This document shows positions 321 to 63,905 of a stretch of DNA of 64,000 bases, in pieces (the first letter of the stretch is position 1; each line of letters opens with the position of its first letter). Position numbers and translations under genes: made by a program. Under the pieces are notes generated by a model that was given only the letters and a program-made list of their open reading frames with translations, was not told where the DNA came from and made no database searches. Source of the DNA: Cliona cf. orientalis (taxonomy: Eukaryota > Porifera > Demospongiae > Clionaida > Clionaidae); NCBI GenBank assembly GCA_963930775.1, contig OZ005689.1, positions 5,754,945-5,818,944 of the forward strand. The letters are read 5' to 3'.

Positions 321-9212
<8,892 letters not shown>

Positions 9213-12009: not shown

Positions 12010-15000
12010 CTGTGAGTGCGTGTGCATGTGGTGGTGGGATGAGTTTATAAAATTGGGCATTTGTGTGTGCGTGCGTGGTGTGTGTGTGGTTTATATTGTG
12101 TGATGATTAGACAAAGGTGGGGAGAATAGAGAGGGAGAGAGAGAGAAAGAGAGAGAGCTGTGCTGTACACTACAGAAATGCAGTGCCATTATAATATAAT
12201 TATTATATAGACAATACTTACATCCAGAAGTCTTGCAGTTTTCTCCACCATGCACCGACACCTTGTCTATCCCTTCATCATCACTTTCTGAAGCTGTTGC
12301 ACATTCTATTGCTCCTCCTTCATCCTCACTGTCCACCTGCGTCCCCTCAGTATCAACTCTGATCCGCTTAGCTTCATTTAGGCCTGTGGAATCGTTTCTT
12401 AGTCGTTTTTTAGCTTTTGCAATCTGCAGTGAAGTAGAGTGTATACCATGGTTTCTCTCTAGCTCCTTGTCCTTTTCAGCCTCCACTACACCACCGATGG
12501 GTACTGCCAAAGGAGCAGCTGCTTGTGCTGTCAGAGCTGAATTTACAGCTGCAGCTTGCACTGCTGTGAGGTGGTGGGAGGAGCCATCCGTGGCAGCTGC
12601 TGCCGGTAAATAGCAGTACATTGGTGAAGGGATAGCAGGGCTGGTCAGTGAAGTAGCAAGCGAAGGAAGATTAAGGCTTGCTGCCGCAGTTAGAGCTGGC
12701 ACCTGAATGGCCGTGGTACCTCCGCAAACTGTCGGACTTGCAGCAGCTGTTCCACCGGCAGCAGCTGCAATCATGATGGGTTGGACTGCAGTGGCACCTC
12801 CGGCAGCCGCAGCACCTGCAGCGGCAGTAGCGAGAGGATTGAGCATGATGTAGTAGCCTTTCAGGGGCGAGGGGAGTGTGGGCGTGAGAGTAGCTGCAGT
12901 GGTCGGCGGAACAGCTGCAGCATAGCTAAGGAGAGGCAAACTAGTTTGTTGTATCTGGGCGGTAGTGGGCAGTGAAAAAGGTGAAGGAGTTGCATTGAGG
13001 GACAGTCTACTTAATACTTGAGAAGTTCCTCCGGCAGCTGTAGGCGCCTGTAATGATGATGTTTGGGTAGTTTTTGGAAGCAATGAGTGAGAGACCGTAA
13101 GTGAAGGAGAAGCTAGTAAGTGAGTGTTATTGGAAACACCGCCAGCAGGGTCCTTGATAAGTGAAGTAATCACCTTGCCTTCTGTCGTGTTTGATGATAT
13201 CAGATTTTGACTAGACACAGCTCTAGAAGATTGACCACCTCTACTTCCCGTTGCCACCTCCTTTCGATCTAAATTTCCACCGTCACTAGCTGCGACCGGC
13301 TCTCTTTCTGAACACCTGCTCTCGTTTCCACTTGAACGTCGTGAATTTGATGTTATTCTTTGAGTATCGATGTACTCAATTGTGTGCTCACTCGGAAGAG
13401 CATCAGAAGCTAACATCTCAGGAGGGGAGGCTATGCAATAGACGGGAGTCTTAGATAATAGCAATGACTCCAACATCCTCTCTCTCTTGCTCAGTCTGTG
13501 GTCGAGCCCTGATGCCAATAGGGCCTGCTGTAATGGTGTCCTTCCAAAGCCACCAGTAGCCGTGGCCAAAACACTAGCACTCGCACCACTGCTATTTCCC
13601 CTCTGATTGGATGGTGATGCTTGCAAGTGTGCATTAATTTGCTCTTGCAGTCGCTTAATCAACTGCAAATTAATTCCGCCTACGTTCATCCCAGCTTGAG
13701 CAGCAGGTTGATTCAGAGTGGCAGCTGTAGCCTGTAGGATACTAGCAGCTGCAGGCTGAGAAGCAGCTGCAGCAGTAGAGAGACTTGGGGAAGAACCAAG
13801 AACAGTCAGAAAGGGATTATTACCAAATAGAATCGGAGATAGGAGACCACCTGTGGGTGTGCTGATTCCCGTAGCTGTAATGGCAGCACCTGGTAGGCCA
13901 GCTAGCACCTGATTGGATAAGGCACCGATAGTCAGCGGAGCGGTGGGAAGAGCAGATAGATTCAGTCCTCCGAGGGGCAGTGCTGGAGACGACATTGGAG
14001 GGGAGATCAAAGCCGGAGTTGTACCAGGTAGTAGGAAGTTGGGAGGATTTGATGCCGCAACGGTTGTAAGGGGAGACGCAGTTGCAATCACACGCTGCTC
14101 ATTTGATGAAGTGGCTGTCTGGTGCTTGACAGCTGGACTTGAGTCTGAATTAGAGCTGGTAACCATCGCTACTGTGCTAGCAATGCTTACGTTTGTTCTC
14201 CTTTCTTTCCCTTTTCTTGGTCTCCCTTCTCCTCTCTGCTCTCTTTCTCTGCTATGATCCCTTTCTCCTCTCCCTTCATTACCACTTTCACTATCCTTGC
14301 TTGGAGACGCCGCCGGCTGCCCCGAGGCTACTTGTTGTAGCAAGGGACTACTGGTCTGTGGTGACAGTTTCTGTGAGGTTGGCGTAACAGCTGTTCTATG
14401 TGGTGTCACAGTGTTGTTCTCCATGACGACCACAGAAGATGGGGCTGCTGATTGGATGATAGAGTTGGAGGATGAATACTGCTGTTGTGCTAATGCCATT
14501 GTATGGACAGCCTTGTGGGCAGCATAGGTGTGAACGGAATTAATACCTGCAATTGTGTTGTGTGTGGTTCATGTGTGTGTGTGTGTGAGTGTGTGTGTGT
14601 GTGTGTGAGAGTGTGCATGTGTATGAGGTAAACTACATAATAGTGTGGTTCAAAACCAAGGTCTCAGGCATGCTGAGTAATTACTGTACCAATCTATATG
14701 CTGTATATATCCCAATGCATGAGGTTCTGTCTGTCATTTTGGCATACTTGTGTGTGAATTAGAGCATACCTAGCTGTACCTCTCTGCATTTTTAGTGTCC
14801 TCAGACTAAGTTGGGGTATACAAGTTGTTTGTCTTGGATATGAAATGAAATACCATTATAATAATACCACTAATACTATTTCCCAGCATGCATATGGGCC
14901 AATAATTACTATAGCACAATCACACACTGTCACGCACACAGCCTGGACCTGACTGAGTATCCAGCACAACAAGGCATGACATAATCACGTGGATTGAGTT

Positions 15001-28601: not shown

Positions 28602-29906
28602 CTATATTATCAGTGAATTGAGGCTAAAATCCCCAGCCAATATTGCAGTTTCCACATATACATCCTGATGTTTATTCATAACAATAGCATTATCACACTC
28701 ACCAACAGTGAAGTTCTTTGGAGATCCCGATGAGATAACTGTTGACAGGTTGTGTATTTCTTCCTCGGTGACCATCAACGTCAGGAATGTGGAAGGAAGT
28801 TGTTTACCGACAGACAGCTGTCTTGTTAGCGGCATGCTAGTTAAAAGAATCGGGGGATTCTTCAGTGACCCCGGCTCGTTATCCGGGTAGAGCATTTGCA
28901 AGAGTCCAGGAAGAAGAGGGTCAAAGTAGTCCCTGTCGTAGCCCACGAAGATTACCAACCGCTTACGAAAGATCTCTCTGAGGATCTCCATTCCTGGCGC
29001 AATGGATCCAAGATCTTCACTTGACACTGGAATGGGATTTCTTCCTCCGAGCCGGGTAGTTGTGTCTGGTGATACCGACGCTTCAAGCTCTCCTCCTCCT
29101 TCTTCTTTGCTAAACTTCCGATAGTCGGTCAGTCGAATGCTGCCTGGATTGATACACACTCCGTGAAGATGAAGGATACCAACAGGATGCTGACGTTGCT
29201 GCTTTCGCTGCATGTCGTGGCCCGGATCTTGATGAGGAACAGCTTCTGGTAAGGTAGAGAGTTTGCTCCATTGCTTGAGTGTCTCTGTGTCGTGTAGTGT
29301 TAGTGGTCTCACTCCAGCAATGGAATCCAGGGTAGTGTCGTACTGTGTGCAAGCTAGAAGTGCACCCTGCTTCTGCAAGCTGAGAAGATGCTGAAAGGAA
29401 CCAATCTCCAGATCTGTCATTGTCAGATCAGCAGCTGCTACTTTTGTTTGACTGTTTGCATTTACCCTGGTTGCAGTTGGCTGCTCTTCTGTAGAATTCT
29501 CATCCACTCTGCTGCTATTTAGGAACAATTGATTCCCGGTCACTGCTTCACCAAAAGTATCCCTTAACCATTCACTGTAGTAGTTCTTTCTCTTCATTAA
29601 CCCCACTAGTCTCTCCATAGCGTTTGTTGGCCCTTCATCAGCTGCAATTTCCTTTATTTGAGCCAAATCATCAACATTATCACTTTCTTTTTCTTCAGAC
29701 AGCTTACTGCTCAAAAAACTAAGTCCAGCATCAAGTATCGAGCTATAAGTTGCTGGAGGCCGCTGAGAGGTGAAGTTCCAGGGAGCAGCTGCCATCGGTG
29801 AGTTGGCCTCTGATTTAGCGCCAGAATTGCGGGCACTCTTGTGACTTAGTTGTGGGCCTATCACAAAGAGACAGGCAGCTGGGTTGACCTCCAACAGTGG
29901 ATTCAT
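28602..29906 (-). CDS. FAM118-type SIR2-like domain protein
   Basis: A Rossmann-type SIR2-like protein similar to animal FAM118A/B. It matches that family in order: LFVIG near the N terminus; TYSSILDAGLSFL; GALLACTQYDTTLD (human-type motif TTNFDNLLE); RPLTLHDTETLKQW; ILHLHGVCINPGSIRL (family HIHG block); EILREIFRKRLVIFVGYD. The HLHG His is kept, but the Asn of the TTN-D motif is Gln here, the first Gly-x-Gly loop reads GPQ, and the later GCG motif reads GYD, so the catalytic site looks altered. A 150-residue insert-like Ser/Glu-rich part separates the first two motifs. ATG at 29906 has a favourable context; the frame is open upstream to an acceptor-like CTTCAG before 29986. A donor (GTGAGT) at 28702 may end the real exon there, with a last exon not found. 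Confidence 0.75.
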   Translation of the reverse strand: MNPLLEVNPAACLFVIGPQLSHKSARNSGAKSEANSPMAAAPWNFTSQRPPATYSSILDAGLSFLSSKLSEEKESDNVDDLAQIKEIAADEGPTNAMERLVGLMKRKNYYSEWLRDTFGEAVTGNQLFLNSSRVDENSTEEQPTATRVNANSQTKVAAADLTMTDLEIGSFQHLLSLQKQGALLACTQYDTTLDSIAGVRPLTLHDTETLKQWSKLSTLPEAVPHQDPGHDMQRKQQRQHPVGILHLHGVCINPGSIRLTDYRKFSKEEGGGELEASVSPDTTTRLGGRNPIPVSSEDLGSIAPGMEILREIFRKRLVIFVGYDRDYFDPLLPGLLQMLYPDNEPGSLKNPPILLTSMPLTRQLSVGKQLPSTFLTLMVTEEEIHNLSTVISSGSPKNFTVGECDNAIVMNKHQDVYVETAILAGDFSLNSLII

Positions 29907-30340
29907 GGTGAACGTCCTCTTCTCTCTCGACTTGAAGCGGGCCAAATGTCGAACTTGCGCTGGCACCGTACAGCTTGTTCCCTGGTCTGAAGACAGTGAT
30001 GACAATCATTCATCCACTTCGTTGGTAAAGATTTACCGCGTACCGGTCGTACCTCTTTTATGTGATTGTGTCACCCAGTGTTTGTAAGCTCTAGAAAAAC
30101 GTAGCTACGCGGCGGAAGTATCGACGATTGGATGCGCTTATGCCGGACTGCACTGTTGACTGATGGCGTTTGCTACGTATTACGTAGTTAATTAGTCGTC
30201 TGCTTGTTTGCGAGCGAAACTGATACGTACACAAAGCGACTGTGGGGCTTAAAACTCTTAGCGAGTGCTTCGATCCGTCTTCCAGAAGGTCTTCTTAGGC
30301 TTGGTTCATAGAAGCTGCTATCTCGGCCTGCACATTATTA
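29907..30340. promoter_or_regulatory. 5' flank of the FAM118-like gene
   Basis: About 30010-30340 is richer in CpG and CGTA words than its surroundings (for example ACGTAGCTACGCGGCGG near 30100), as expected for a promoter or first-exon zone. No TATA box is convincing. A non-coding or short first exon may lie here. Confidence 0.35.
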
Positions 30341-44835: not shown

Positions 44836-56537
<11,702 letters not shown>

Positions 56538-57553: not shown

Positions 57554-58059
57554 ATGATGAAGCTAAGGGTGTGGGTTGTGAGACTAGTTTTGTTGTACAT
57601 GTAGAGCCATCATGATCAAGCTGACAATCTTGCAAGTGGAACGAAGTGTGCTTCAGCCGATGAAAAGAAAGCAGTTATCGTCTTACAAGTTACAGGTAGA
57701 TAGGGAAAACAAAAACTCTTGCATGGACCTTTGACGACCACTTACCTTATATGGCAATAGATATTAGGCGAAGGCTGATTTCATATTCGTATCCGTGTTG
57801 ATAGCAACCAAACTGTACTGGCAGACTCTTCATCTCATCTACATTACATACATGTATAATATAGCTACAATGTAGTTGGAGAAGTCCACCCAGGTTCAAT
57901 CCCGGATTGACATTGGCAACGATGGCAGTGCGTTCGTCGAGGTTCTGGTTGGTCGATCCACTGCTCCCGACAGCTATGAGATCCTCATTGGGATGTCGAC
58001 CTTTATGACCCCTCAGGAGAGCAAGCAGTGGAGCAATGCCAACAGAGTCAGGATATTTG
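57554..58059 (+). CDS. XRCC1: XRCC1 N-terminal exons (gene incomplete in window)
   Basis: XRCC1 is the scaffold of single-strand break and base excision repair; its N-terminal domain binds DNA polymerase beta and nicked DNA. Exon 57605-57688 reads SHHDQADNLASG ... DEKKAVIVLQ and exon 57876-58059 reads LEKSTQVQSRIDIGNDGSAF, VEVLVG, YEILI, STFMTP and NRVRIFG, matching human XRCC1 residues up to about 80 (VVLQLEK, DIGNDGSAFVEVLVG, SSFMSPSES, NRVRMFG). The join needs donor GTTACA at 57689, weak but the only one keeping the frame. A first exon at 57554-57577 (MMKLRVWV) would need a 27-bp intron and is tentative. Donor GTGAGC at 58060 is good, yet no following XRCC1 exon is seen up to 64000. The rest may lie beyond the window with the 58986-63905 gene inside an intron, or may be lost. 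Confidence 0.85.
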
Positions 58060-58985
58060 GTGAGCATTAAGGATGGTTGCATTAAGCCGGTGAGGGAATC
58101 CGGGCTCACTCTGTCCTTTTTCCTATCTCTCCCTCTCTCTCTCTCTGTCTCCATTCTCTACATGCATACCTTCTCCCTGTCATTCTTCCACATGGCTGTC
58201 TGGTTACCCCCTTCCCCTTCGTAGCATTTCCCGGGCCACACTTAGCTCAGCTTGCTCTAGCTTAGCTAATCTACATGCATGTACATATACACATAATTAT
58301 TCCCCCACCTACCCATGGCATAATCTATTAATTTTGTCTAACTAGAGCTCTATAGAGATACATGTAATAATTCTGGAAACATTTGTTACACTCTATATTT
58401 AATATGAAAAATATTCTCAGAGTGATTGTTTACTTACATGTATATACACTGTAGTCCATGTCATTACAGAGGGTACAAAAGCGGATGCACTTTGCCACAT
58501 GTTCAGAAGGCTCATGATTGGTCAGAATTATAGTGCCATGTGCACAAACAATGGTGCCATAGAGATGCATGCGCACGGGGTAAAAATCAATGAACACCGG
58601 ACAACACAACTGCTTACTTTACCCTTTGTGCAAGTGCGGCGATAAAATTAATGAAACAAAAACTTAGTGAGTAACAGTGTTAAGAACTGGTATTGAATAT
58701 CCGCCTCTAGAGACCCTACTCCTACCTGACACAAAGTATTCAAATAAAATATTTAAACAAGGTCTCTTAAGTTATATGAAACACTACTACATGATTTTCT
58801 GTTGCTTATACATAATTCAATAAGGCCTATTACACAAATTAATTCCTTATACTGAACTATATCATGAGAAATTAGCACACTGCTACTTTAATGTAGCATA
58901 AGTTTCTAATAAACAATTTAGTTAATAACATCTATTCAGTTTATATTAATTTTTAGAGTTTCTATGATTGTACTCAAAGTTTACA
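58060..58985. other. Region between the XRCC1 exons and the beta-helix gene
   Basis: CT-rich run at about 58106-58160. 58470-58644 is an open frame after an acceptor-like TTACAG, in phase with the XRCC1 donor, but its sequence (GTKADALCHMFRRLMIGQNY) does not resemble XRCC1. AT-rich 3' flank of the minus-strand gene from about 58640. Confidence 0.5.
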
Positions 58986-61900
58986 TTAGACTCGGCTAAC
59001 TGCTTCCTTCTCTTTGACTTGGGCTGCCTCTGCAGCACCAGGTGAGTTGGCCACTTCTTCAGGATCTGGTGCTGCAAGATCACGGGGTTGGTGCACCTCC
59101 ACCACAGACTGGGTGGGCTTTACTGGCTCTTGCTGTTTGACTAGCGCTTTATAGTCATAAGTGTTAACAGGGCGGTCAATCACGTCCAAGAGTTCATTGA
59201 ATCGATGAATATCATCATCAGGTGGTAGGCTCCAGTGACGTTCAGGTTTTGGTTTTGGATCACCATCAGTGAACAGTCTGTCAATAATTCTACCGAGCTT
59301 TGTGTTATAAATCTTTGAGAAGACTGAGGTGTATGTGTAGACATGGTAGAGGATGATAAGCAGCAGCACAATGAGTGTGATGATGACTGAAGTGGCAGCT
59401 GCTTTACGGGTGCTAGCCGGGCTATCAAGAGAATACCAGGTGAAAGTCATGAACGATAGGATATTCAAGTAGAAAAATGTCTCAAGTACATCCACTGGCC
59501 ATTTCCTGTACAGTCTGCTGCCAAAGAACTGCTTCAAAGCAAAAATGCAACACACTGTAAAATTGATAGCTGTAAGAGCAATAGTGGGGTCATTGGAAAC
59601 ATTTGTGGCACCTACAAGGTACAAGACGACACGAATTATCAGCAGCAGTCCAGTCCAGTAGCGGTACTTGGGAGTGTAAGGCTTGTGGTAGGTTTCAATG
59701 AATGTTTGTATCTTTGGATTCCTTGACCACCTGAAAATTCTCCATCTCGGAAGGTAGAGGAGCCACTGCCAGGAGAAGAGAAGAACAGCGTAGACCAGAC
59801 CAACCAGTAAAAGGAGAACAGCTACAATGAATAGAGGAATGTGATTTCCGGAGAGATATTTGACAGTTGCATCAGGGAGCCACAGCTTTTCACTAGAGCC
59901 ATCAGGATACTCCAGAATCCCAACTGATAGAGATTTAAAGCAGATTTGAAGAAGCTTAGCATAGGAAAGCTGAATAAGTATAGCCAGAGTTGCCACTGGA
60001 TCCTTCTTTCCAATGAGGGTAGAAAATTTAGTAGAGTAGGAGCTGATGATGATAACTAAAACCACAAGAAGAATGACATAGGCAGGAAAAGCTAACTGTA
60101 GCCATGTTTTAATGTAAGCATCCATTTCTGGAAAGTAGCAGGTGTCAATTCCTATTTCTAAGTTTAACCATGATATGAACATAGTAATGAAGTTTCTTGT
60201 TCGAAATGGAAGTAGAATATTTTCGTTTGCATATACAATATTGGCATAAAAGATCAGCCCATTTAGAGTTCCAACTGCAACAGTTACGTTGAGTAGTAAC
60301 AATAAAGCCACCAGTGCTATACCAGCTAGAATTGCAGTTATGGTGATTGCTATGAGTAGTGCAGGCCAGTAGCTAGGACATGGAAGGCAGTGTGAACTAC
60401 CAAGAGAGAGGCTGAAACCAGGTTGGCAAGATCCACACAACAGAGATGCCCGGTCGAAAGCACACTGAGCATCAGCTCCATTTGGCTGGTTGAGGTCAAC
60501 TGGTGGACTGTTTGATAAGCAGTAATCAGAAGGACAGTTGGGGTAGACTAGATAACCAGTTTGGTCTGTGTCATTGATGTAGGAAATCCAGGCTCTGGAC
60601 TGAGGCTTTTTGAATAATAATCCACTCTGGCTATCACAGTGATCAACATATTGACTGATATTGCTATGGCAGTCACATGTACAATTTGTGCTGTTCATTC
60701 CTGATTCTTGTAGCCCAATTGGACAGCTGCAAGGGAGAAAGTGAATTTGTACTGTTGCCCTAGAGAGTTCAGCATCCTTGCACGGACCATCTGAGGCATA
60801 GAGGGACAGATGTTCAGAGATATGGGGTGAAACAATGTTAAATGTCAAATTAGTACACTCAGCAGGTATATTCCTAGCCAGCTGACCTTCAGCTAGACCA
60901 CTCTCAGTGAATTGAAGGGAGGTTTGGATGGTTGCACTAACTGGTTGGCCATTCTGGTCAACAGCAACAACTGAGAGTTTTAATGTTTGTCCCTTTTTAA
61001 CCTCAGTGTAATGTTGGTGGGTGCAGTCATTGGTATTGTTTTGATCAGCATTGAAGCAAAGGCACACTCTAACTGGATTAGAGGATACTGAGAGGTTTGT
61101 GTCAATCTGCACAGTTTCCATATACATGAATATAGGATCATACCCTAAGCTGTAGTTGTATGTATAATATGTATTCGTAGGAGTGGACACATTCTTGAAG
61201 TAAGCAACCCCATCACCTCTGTCTTTAAAGTCACGTGGGTACTTATTGTGAACTTCAGCAAATGGACTCACTGCACATCTGTCTAGTAGTCCTCCATAGA
61301 GAGTGGAGCCAGAAACAATGGCATGATTTTGTGAAAAGTACATACTCTGTGTACTGAGACTCTGTATGACCATTAAATATGGACTTTCATCACTATTGTG
61401 GAGATCAAGTACTTGAAAGAAGCATTCTGTCTCTGTGTTGCTAGTACATGTACCAGAGTTGGTATCATCATCCACATATATTGCTCCACCGTAGTCTGCA
61501 CTGTTGGCTGTGAATGTTGTTGTATTGAAGTCCTCATAATTAGCATAATAATACAATAACATGTAGTCATATTTCAGGATATAAAATTTTGCATTGGCTT
61601 CCAGTGATATTCCGCCTCCCCTCTCCGCCACATTTCTACTTATGTCTATTATTGCACCAGTGTAATTGTACATGTTTTGGGACAATCCAACAAAGGATGA
61701 AGCTGCCTTGATAGATGAGCCAATGGCGTGGAGTCCTCCCCCTTTACTCACTGCTATATTACCATAAAGTTCAAAATAGCTTTCTCGTTGGCAGTTTAGT
61801 TCGCTAGTTGAGAGGTAGACACCTCCTCCATTTCCAGTGGCAGTGTTATGTGCTATAGTTACATCACCATTCACATAGAGTCTGCTCTCAGTGGAATGTA

Positions 61901-63905
61901 TTGCTCCGCCATTTTCAGCATGGTTGTGTTCAAGATTGCATTCTCCATCAAAAAATACATTGCTCTGAAATAAAGTTATTGCACCTCCTTCTTGGAAGTC
62001 ACCTGAGACAGTTTGTGATGGTTGGTTATTCACAAATGTAGCATAACCATTGAAAGTGATATTGCTGTTAAATGCAACTAATGATCCTAAATTGTTTGAG
62101 AATGTTACAGTCGCATTTCCTGAATCATCTCCAATGAATTCTGAGTTAGATAAGTATATCACAGCATACCTATCAGCTATGTTGTTATTGATCAGGAAAT
62201 AGCCATATGTATGCTGAATCACAGATCTGGATACTGTATGAATAATTGCTCCAATTGGTGAAACGTTACTAGTGAAGCTACTACTAGCTATTGTGATGAT
62301 AGTGGATCGAGAGTACAGTACTCCACCACTATTGCTGGCGTTGTTATTATGAAATTCACTTGCTTCTATTGTGATAGTACTGCTGTAGGAATCCAGTACT
62401 CCTCCACTTCTGGCTCTGTTGTCATGAAATTCACTTGCTTCTATTGTGAAAGTACTGCTGCTGGAGTACAGTACTCCTCCACTTCCGGCTCTGTTGTCAT
62501 GAAATTCACTTGCTTCTTTTATTGTGATATTACTGCTGTAGGAATACAGCACTCCTCCACTGCTGGCATCGTTATTATGAAATTCACTTGCTTCTATTGT
62601 GATAGTACTGCTCCTGGAATACAGTACTCCTCCATCGTACGTGGCACTATTATTATGGAATCCACTTGCTTCTATTGTGATAGTACTGCTGCTGAAATAC
62701 AGTAATCCTCCATAGTACCTGGCACTATTATTATGAAATCCACTTGCTTCTATTGTGATAGTACTGCTGTAGATGGAATACAGTACTCCTCCACTTCCGG
62801 CTCTGTTGTCATGAAATTCACTTGCTTCTTTTATTGTGATATTACTGCTGTAGGAATACAGCACTCCTCCACTGCTGGCATCGTTATTATGAAATTCACT
62901 TGCTTCTATTGTGATAGTACTGCTGCTGGAATACAGTACTCCTCCGTAGTACCTGGCACTGTTATTATGGAATCCACTTGCTTCTATTGTGATAGTACTG
63001 CTGCTGAAATACAGTACTCCTCCATAGGACCTGGCACTGTTATTATGGAATCCACTTGCTTCTATTGTGATAGTACTGCTGCTGAAATACAGTACTCCTC
63101 CATAGGACCTGGCACTGTTATTATGAAATCCACTTGCTTCTATTGTGATAGTACTGCTGCTGGAATACAGTACTCCTCCATACCTGCTAGCACTGTTACT
63201 AACAAACATGTTACTGCTCATGCTAATAATGCTATCCTGTTCTGCAAATATAGCTCCGCCAAAGTCTGCTTCGTTGTCTTTAAATCTGCTTTGGCTGATG
63301 TCAACTGTACTGTTGGTAGCAATAATTGCACCGCCAATGAATCTATCATACCGGTAATAATAATAATTATATATACAACCATATTGGTTAAATGTAACAC
63401 ATTTTCTGTACAATCCTTTTCTATTGGATAGAAAAGTGCTGTTGACAATCTGTGCTGTTGTTTCAATTAGCTCTAGTGCAGTTGAACTGTTCTCTTGACC
63501 TTCAAACTTTGTGTCTTCAACCACAAATTCTTCAACATGTCTCACTTTATTTCCTCCACATCCAATAAACTCCAGGTTAGCAATATGAATGCACTGTGAT
63601 TGGTAGAATTGCATAGCTGATTCAATCGTACATTTGATTTGTGCTGTTGAGTTCTCAGACTTCATTAGAAAGTTGTCCACATTTGACAATGTCAGGTTGA
63701 CATTGCTGAGGTTGTGTATTCCAGGGAGGAAGACCAGTGTGGTGTTGGAATGGAGGGAATGGCTTGAGTTAGCAGCAAACTGAGAGAGGGTTAAACATGG
63801 CTGTACAGTGCAAAGGTCAGATGAGTTTGTTGTGATGTAATAGACCTCACTGGATGCTTGGTTTAGAGAGCAGAGGATAACAAGTGATAGAGTCAAGAGA
63901 CTCAT
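58986..63905 (-). CDS. Single-exon beta-helix (Pmp-type repeat) multipass membrane protein, 1639 aa
   Basis: ATG at 63905, stop at 58986. Residues 1-19 form a signal peptide (MSLLTLSLVILCSLNQASS). About 30-1000 is a right-handed parallel beta-helix type region: repeats of the form F..N.A...GGA(I/V)......(I/V)....S, like chlamydial Pmp repeats and sponge proteins. Residues about 238-541 are a tandem array of 24-26-residue units. A Cys-rich stalk follows (about 1056-1172; CSCPIGLQ, NCTCDCH, CGSCQPGFSL, CLPCPSYWP). About 1177-1535 has eight or nine hydrophobic segments, and the tail of about 100 residues is charged and cytosolic by inference. Many N-x-S/T sites fit an extracellular N-terminal half. 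The function is unknown; a cell-surface recognition or adhesion role is only inference. The uninterrupted 4.9-kb frame contrasts with its many-exon neighbours. Confidence 0.85.
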   Translation of the reverse strand: MSLLTLSLVILCSLNQASSEVYYITTNSSDLCTVQPCLTLSQFAANSSHSLHSNTTLVFLPGIHNLSNVNLTLSNVDNFLMKSENSTAQIKCTIESAMQFYQSQCIHIANLEFIGCGGNKVRHVEEFVVEDTKFEGQENSSTALELIETTAQIVNSTFLSNRKGLYRKCVTFNQYGCIYNYYYYRYDRFIGGAIIATNSTVDISQSRFKDNEADFGGAIFAEQDSIISMSSNMFVSNSASRYGGVLYSSSSTITIEASGFHNNSARSYGGVLYFSSSTITIEASGFHNNSARSYGGVLYFSSSTITIEASGFHNNSARYYGGVLYSSSSTITIEASEFHNNDASSGGVLYSYSSNITIKEASEFHDNRAGSGGVLYSIYSSTITIEASGFHNNSARYYGGLLYFSSSTITIEASGFHNNSATYDGGVLYSRSSTITIEASEFHNNDASSGGVLYSYSSNITIKEASEFHDNRAGSGGVLYSSSSTFTIEASEFHDNRARSGGVLDSYSSTITIEASEFHNNNASNSGGVLYSRSTIITIASSSFTSNVSPIGAIIHTVSRSVIQHTYGYFLINNNIADRYAVIYLSNSEFIGDDSGNATVTFSNNLGSLVAFNSNITFNGYATFVNNQPSQTVSGDFQEGGAITLFQSNVFFDGECNLEHNHAENGGAIHSTESRLYVNGDVTIAHNTATGNGGGVYLSTSELNCQRESYFELYGNIAVSKGGGLHAIGSSIKAASSFVGLSQNMYNYTGAIIDISRNVAERGGGISLEANAKFYILKYDYMLLYYYANYEDFNTTTFTANSADYGGAIYVDDDTNSGTCTSNTETECFFQVLDLHNSDESPYLMVIQSLSTQSMYFSQNHAIVSGSTLYGGLLDRCAVSPFAEVHNKYPRDFKDRGDGVAYFKNVSTPTNTYYTYNYSLGYDPIFMYMETVQIDTNLSVSSNPVRVCLCFNADQNNTNDCTHQHYTEVKKGQTLKLSVVAVDQNGQPVSATIQTSLQFTESGLAEGQLARNIPAECTNLTFNIVSPHISEHLSLYASDGPCKDAELSRATVQIHFLPCSCPIGLQESGMNSTNCTCDCHSNISQYVDHCDSQSGLLFKKPQSRAWISYINDTDQTGYLVYPNCPSDYCLSNSPPVDLNQPNGADAQCAFDRASLLCGSCQPGFSLSLGSSHCLPCPSYWPALLIAITITAILAGIALVALLLLLNVTVAVGTLNGLIFYANIVYANENILLPFRTRNFITMFISWLNLEIGIDTCYFPEMDAYIKTWLQLAFPAYVILLVVLVIIISSYSTKFSTLIGKKDPVATLAILIQLSYAKLLQICFKSLSVGILEYPDGSSEKLWLPDATVKYLSGNHIPLFIVAVLLLLVGLVYAVLLFSWQWLLYLPRWRIFRWSRNPKIQTFIETYHKPYTPKYRYWTGLLLIIRVVLYLVGATNVSNDPTIALTAINFTVCCIFALKQFFGSRLYRKWPVDVLETFFYLNILSFMTFTWYSLDSPASTRKAAATSVIITLIVLLLIILYHVYTYTSVFSKIYNTKLGRIIDRLFTDGDPKPKPERHWSLPPDDDIHRFNELLDVIDRPVNTYDYKALVKQQEPVKPTQSVVEVHQPRDLAAPDPEEVANSPGAAEAAQVKEKEAVSRV
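62280..63190 (-). repeat. Coding tandem array of ~72-78-bp units in the beta-helix gene
   Basis: About twelve units of type FHNNSARSYGGVLYFSSSTI then TIEASG/E. Several units are identical or nearly so at the DNA level, for example around 62985-63140. Two blocks of three units (around 62505-62590 and 62805-62890; FHNNDASSGGVLYSYSSNIT followed by FHDNRAGSGG) are near copies of each other, showing a higher-order duplication. All indels keep the frame. Confidence 0.92.

Follow-up and report, generated by a model that had tools for sequence, protein, structure and literature searches.

A Giant Open Reading Frame Combining Pmp-Type Beta-Helix Coils With a Predicted Multi-Pass Membrane Part in Cliona cf. 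orientalis

We analyzed a stretch of 64,000 nucleotides from contig OZ005689.1 of the demosponge Cliona cf. orientalis (hereafter, the window) and identified a single open reading frame (ORF) of 1639 codons on its minus strand, at positions 58986-63905. The giant protein that it encodes carries a large N-terminal ectodomain with Pmp-type motifs, followed by a Cys-rich stalk, a predicted multi-pass membrane part and a polar tail, and we propose with moderate confidence that this ORF, probably of demosponge origin, is an animal gene that is intact and codes for a surface adhesin or receptor. The ORF starts with ATG, and an in-frame stop codon is located 12 codons upstream. Stop-free runs in 100 first-order Markov windows did not exceed 279 codons (mean = 158), so an open frame of 1639 codons is not explained by chance. 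An earlier note, made from the letters of this DNA alone, had given exactly these coordinates; the strand, which it left out, is minus. It had also described a single exon, which holds for the open frame, although a 5' non-coding exon could lie beyond the 95 bases of 5' flank that precede the window edge. The plus-strand ORFs at 62349-62705 and 62733-63431 are mostly the reverse reading of the repeats, and a search for a second copy of the gene within the 64-kb window found none.

The protein begins with a hydrophobic stretch (residues 1-21 by hydropathy), which makes the signal peptide of the earlier note probable (residues 1-20; 63846-63905, minus strand, as for all segments of this gene). 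The N-terminal part of the ectodomain follows (residues 21-190; 63336-63845), where the structural model has strands but a predicted local distance difference test score (pLDDT) below 50. Recognizable Pmp motifs extend over residues ~191-880, that is, ~690 residues rather than the ~1000 residues of repeats described at first. In this part of the protein lie two older Pmp-type coils (residues 191-242; 63180-63335), eleven recent coils (residues 243-526; 62328-63179) and a diverged segment in which GG and F..N motifs recur, delimited by Pfam and motif counts (residues 527-900; 61206-62327). A hidden Markov model search with the Pfam profile Chlam_PMP (PF02415) matched the full protein with 62.6 bits (E = 1.1e-17; curated cut-off = 20.6), which bears out the Pmp-type assignment; residues 1-1045 alone reached 67.7 bits (E = 2.4e-19), and the best stretch was residues 796-811. 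In residues 20-900, F..N followed by GG[AVIL] within 3-12 residues occurs 16 times, as compared to a mean of 0.08 and a maximum of 3 in 5000 shuffles, and 4 times when the tandem array is omitted (shuffle mean = 0.05, maximum = 2). The strict chlamydial coil pattern of PMC11166332, GGA[ILV]-x(14,18)-FxxN, is found once over the same residues and its GG[AV][ILVF] form 4 times, while a relaxed coil pattern of our own making is found 21 times with overlapping starts counted (shuffle mean = 0.18). The motifs, the profile match and a partial model thus support a predicted right-handed beta-helix arm over a long part of the ectodomain.

The arm is followed by a beta-rich, Cys-rich juxtamembrane region identified from the model and the residue count (residues 940-1178; 60372-61088), whose 18 Cys agree with the stalk noted earlier; a DUF7630 match at residues 1145-1176 was below threshold. 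Hydropathy and the model then delimit a multi-pass membrane part (residues 1187-1520; 59346-60347), for which the Kyte-Doolittle scale gives 8 hydrophobic peaks and a stricter cut on the Goldman-Engelman-Steitz scale gives 9 segments plus one optional (a tenth, in the Cys stalk, was discarded), matching the 8-9 segments counted before. This part was modelled as helices, with low confidence. Nine helices with the N-terminus outside, the best fit, would place 18 K+R inside against 8 outside, counts that become 20 and 6 if an alternative second helix is used; by these simple scales nine helices seem to agree with the positive-inside rule better than seven. The same rule predicts that the polar tail of 119 residues (58989-59345) is cytosolic, as had been claimed; the tail ends in SRV, which resembles a class I PDZ ligand. 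Because a Pmp-type beta-helix ectodomain is followed by a multi-pass membrane part, an architecture supported by motif, profile, partial model and hydropathy, the product is probably a cell-surface protein.

The eleven recent coils, of 25-27 residues each, form a tandem array with a 78-bp period, delimited with Tandem Repeats Finder, alignments, the model and VIA. Tandem Repeats Finder reports 11.2 copies of 78 bp or, alternatively, 2.8 copies of 312 bp. Base identity among the coils is 76-100%, and the alignment shows that they differ in length by whole codons. Two coils, at residues 346 and 450, do not differ at all, and a second pair, at 321 and 425, is 99% alike, so a two-coil block was duplicated recently. 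On a tree of the coils we inferred 29 nonsynonymous and 10 synonymous changes over 26 codons. These counts are approximate: at column 8, AGC turned into TAC three times in parallel, which suggests that coils have exchanged sequence. The gapped ratio of nonsynonymous to synonymous rates (dN/dS) among the eleven coils is 0.72; for seven coils, the ungapped ratio of the corresponding proportions (pN/pS) came to 1.17, an artefact of one-codon insertions. In excerpts of PMC11166332, T1 is the turn that follows the GGA strand, T2 occupies positions 16-17 and T3 comes next to FxxN on its C-terminal side; accordingly, we took T1 as columns 7-9 and T3 as columns 24-28. These 8 codons hold 23 of the 29 nonsynonymous changes (column permutation p = 0.0003-0.0004) and 4 of the 10 synonymous ones (p = 0.51), and the two ratios differ (Fisher p = 0.043). 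In a nine-codon core fixed a priori, nonsynonymous changes number 2 and synonymous ones 4 (p = 0.065); the remaining 17 coil codons have 27 and 6 (p = 0.38). The concentration at turns argues for a translated array in which the strands are kept, without proving it. Given that most amino-acid changes in the recent coils fall at T1 and T3, the arm appears to be a constant scaffold that displays recurring patches of side chains able to change; this pattern is statistically fragile, and the patches may bind ligands. As a separate observation, third codon positions at 62314-63182 hardly vary in coil codons 1-19, where mean diversity is 0.038 as against 0.372 in codons 20-28; the coils may have exchanged sequence unevenly.

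We compared the protein with known systems. Chlamydial Pmp proteins (PF02415) share the GG[A/V] and FxxN motifs, set in coils of ~25 residues within a beta-helix ectodomain, and their right-handed beta-helix passenger has a predicted counterpart here; the 1530 amino acids of PmpD, as given in excerpts of PMC11166332, are close to the 1639 of this protein. In the alignment, 13 residues separate GGxx from FxxN in 8 of the 11 array coils and 14 in the other 3, whereas the same excerpts give 14-18 for most chlamydial pairs. The present protein also has many N-glycosylation sequons, unlike chlamydial Pmp proteins, and 8-9 hydrophobic segments in place of an autotransporter beta-barrel: neither the Pmp middle domain nor the barrel is among the Pfam matches listed up to E = 10. 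The Pmp-like proteins of trichomonads are likewise eukaryotic, with N-terminal Pmp motifs, a C-terminal membrane part and a cytosolic tail; according to sections of PMC6701047 they often have a single membrane helix and ATPITK, and the tails of T. vaginalis carry NPx[YWF]. The present protein has 8-9 segments rather than a single helix, lacks ATPITK, and has no NPx[YF] in its tail. The bacterial two-partner-secretion adhesins HMW1, EtpA and HxuA, together with Rhombotarget A, resemble it in fold only (8-12% identity in superposition). Adhesion G-protein-coupled receptors also join a large ectodomain to a multi-pass membrane part, but no GPS, GAIN or seven-helix domain is listed among Pfam-A matches, up to E = 1 in one search and E = 10 in another; the tripeptide HLS is present at residue 1032, 155 residues ahead of the first helix. 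As the repeat and part of the fold are found here without the chlamydial barrel, the trichomonad single helix, ATPITK or any match to an adhesion G-protein-coupled receptor domain, we place the protein outside the Pmp family and regard it as a variant architecture built with Pmp-type coils.

Several points weigh against reading this protein as a surface adhesin or receptor with a beta-helix arm and variable turns. The structure prediction for the ectodomain gave a partial beta-helix, but mean pLDDT was 40.1, 894 of 1180 residues were below 50, and Foldseek found no PDB match to the model at E <= 0.001. A profile built from the array and its neighbours finds no coils in the C-terminal flank, where 141 of 200 shuffles score at least as high, so that the coils proposed there depend on Chlam_PMP and the GG and F..N pattern. 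The membrane part has no assignable family in Pfam-A. According to excerpts of PMC11166332, the conserved residues of the motifs lie within the helix and are probably structural, and a Pmp repeat alone therefore does not imply adhesion. Accounts of adhesion do exist: chlamydial Pmp fragments mediate it (PMC2997323, in part), and expression of a Trichomonas Pmp raised the adherence of another trichomonad (PMC6701047, same sections), but the tagged trichomonad protein was seen in inner compartments and not at the plasma membrane. Regarding the turns, the classes were set after the variable columns had been seen, and indel columns 6 and 15 were dropped. The T2 columns 16-17, unchanged among the coils, were initially classed as strand, and the permutation p rises to 0.004 when they count as turn. 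When each column counts once, turns make up 6 of the 12 changed columns and 10 of all 26 (T1, T2 and T3; p = 0.23), indicating that the concentration comes from repeated change at few turn positions, and the contrast between nonsynonymous and synonymous changes disappears (Fisher p = 1.0). Finally, amino-acid change at turns shows no excess over the neutral expectation (p = 0.20-0.26).

These last results bear on the strongest alternative, a purely structural adhesin. In that case the arm would serve as a long spacer or as a contact to the matrix, its turns would vary for lack of constraint, and the membrane part would do no more than anchor it. The turn changes fit neutrality (p = 0.26; 0.20-0.23) and the strands hint at purifying selection (p = 0.06), with neutral fractions of 0.78 and 0.74 set by hand or 0.77 and 0.75 computed, the latter giving p = 0.225 for turns and 0.059 for strands; the structural role given to the motifs in PMC11166332 points the same way. 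On the other hand, about nine helices and a 119-residue tail exceed what an anchor needs, an argument from economy, and we regard this explanation as rather unlikely though worth keeping in view. A force- or ligand-gated channel or sensor, in which the helices would form a pore, TRP-like or other, and the beta-helix would act as an extracellular lever, seems very improbable; in its favor, the order of a Cys-rich stalk and then about nine helices is reminiscent of multi-pass sensor proteins of protists and fungi.

The earlier note took the absence of introns as a hint of retrotransposition or ancient transfer. The neighborhood of the gene is animal-like and intron-bearing, as shown by two exons of COP9 signalosome subunit 2 (53582-56367, minus strand; E = 1.2e-21 and 2.5e-25 to solved CSN2) and by collagen-like ORFs (4078-8248, plus strand), the last of which carries the C4 domain of type IV collagen (E = 1.8e-18). 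The CSN2 exons lie downstream on the same strand, ~2 kb apart for ~100 intervening residues, hence this neighbor has introns, and beside it a single open frame could suggest a retrocopy or a transferred gene. The flanks also share a 12-base direct match (copies at 57940 and 63923, the 5' flank being 95 bases long), reached in 2 of 200 shuffles, and GC content at third codon positions (0.378) ranks low among five coding stretches of the window (others 0.380, 0.448, 0.556 and 0.662). However, overall GC content is 0.414 in the gene and 0.416 in the rest of the window, no A run of at least 6 occurs in the 1500 bases past the stop, and the downstream copy of the match, ~1 kb past the stop, has no poly(A) tract. 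That copy is contained in a 135-residue ORF just downstream of the gene (57747-58154, minus strand) with no Pfam match.

Searches for relatives covered collections of prokaryotic genomes, viruses, phages and plasmids, with limited reach. Pattern scans, in which only close relatives are in reach, gave 3 stretches in viral_contigs for residues 1036-1639, and 8 stretches in viral_contigs and 59 in genome_contigs for residues 1200-1330, none confirmed. A tblastn search found no match to residues 1200-1330 in phages or to residues 1046-1639 in plasmids. A degenerate DNA pattern for the GT-NG-IFY-N motif had no match in viral_contigs; its single match in genome_contigs, Aureibaculum L001, was judged a chance hit, as the best match covers 14 residues with E = 0.15. 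Neither retrotransposition nor bacterial transfer was borne out: apart from the 12-base match nothing points to a recent retrocopy or transfer, these scans gave no relatives of the membrane part, and we give such an origin scant probability. An ancient transfer of the repeat part alone may have occurred, and a sponge origin of the gene is plausible. Sponge databases presumably hold uncharacterized Pmp-repeat proteins with the same architecture and a similar membrane part. No description of sponge Pmp proteins was found, judged by title, among the papers listed by searches of the openly licensed PubMed Central literature, and term look-ups in PMC4784904, PMC4302439 and PMC12716839 gave nothing on Pmp or beta-helix proteins.

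A decaying copy, open through youth and with a neutral minisatellite for an array, has equally scant probability: recent 78-bp tandem duplications with one identical coil pair and the once-per-column control would suit it, but 4917 bases remain open, coils differ by whole codons and, weighted by change number, amino-acid and not synonymous changes cluster at turns.

Two further minus-strand ORFs were observed elsewhere in the window. One of 467 residues (28602-30005) has a weak SIR2-like match (PF13289, E = 0.02, below cut-off) and no PDB sequence match up to E = 1; we take it to read like the FAM118 group of SIR2-like proteins. The other, of 802 residues (12091-14499), is rich in Ala, Ser and Pro and has no Pfam match.

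A surface adhesin or receptor, with arm and anchor predicted and ligand, signal and role as we infer them, is the most likely identity of the giant protein. Its Pmp-type coils would build a stiff right-handed beta-helix arm that the Cys-rich stalk may keep off the membrane, while about nine helices would anchor the protein with its tail inside, a topology taken from the positive-inside rule. A beta-helix holds turn residues in repeated rows and is therefore suited to multivalent binding of surface polymers; the arm may bind sugars or proteins on microbes or neighboring cells, and the multi-pass part and tail could relay binding or tension, or couple to scaffold proteins through the C-terminal SRV. 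A candidate role in microbe binding or self/non-self recognition is plausible. It is a long shot that the protein is a fast-evolving recognition receptor of an early animal, one whose coil number and turn residues differ from one individual to the next as 78-bp units are unequally exchanged and whose nine-helix signalling module belongs to an undescribed family; if true, the coil repertoire would serve self/non-self or symbiont discrimination. How sponges distinguish symbionts, food bacteria and other sponges is largely open. The protein joins a Pmp-type beta-helix to a predicted multi-pass membrane part, unlike the two published anchors considered here, a barrel and mostly a single helix, and with its recently expanded array, where most amino-acid changes lie at turns, it is a testable candidate for sponge recognition.
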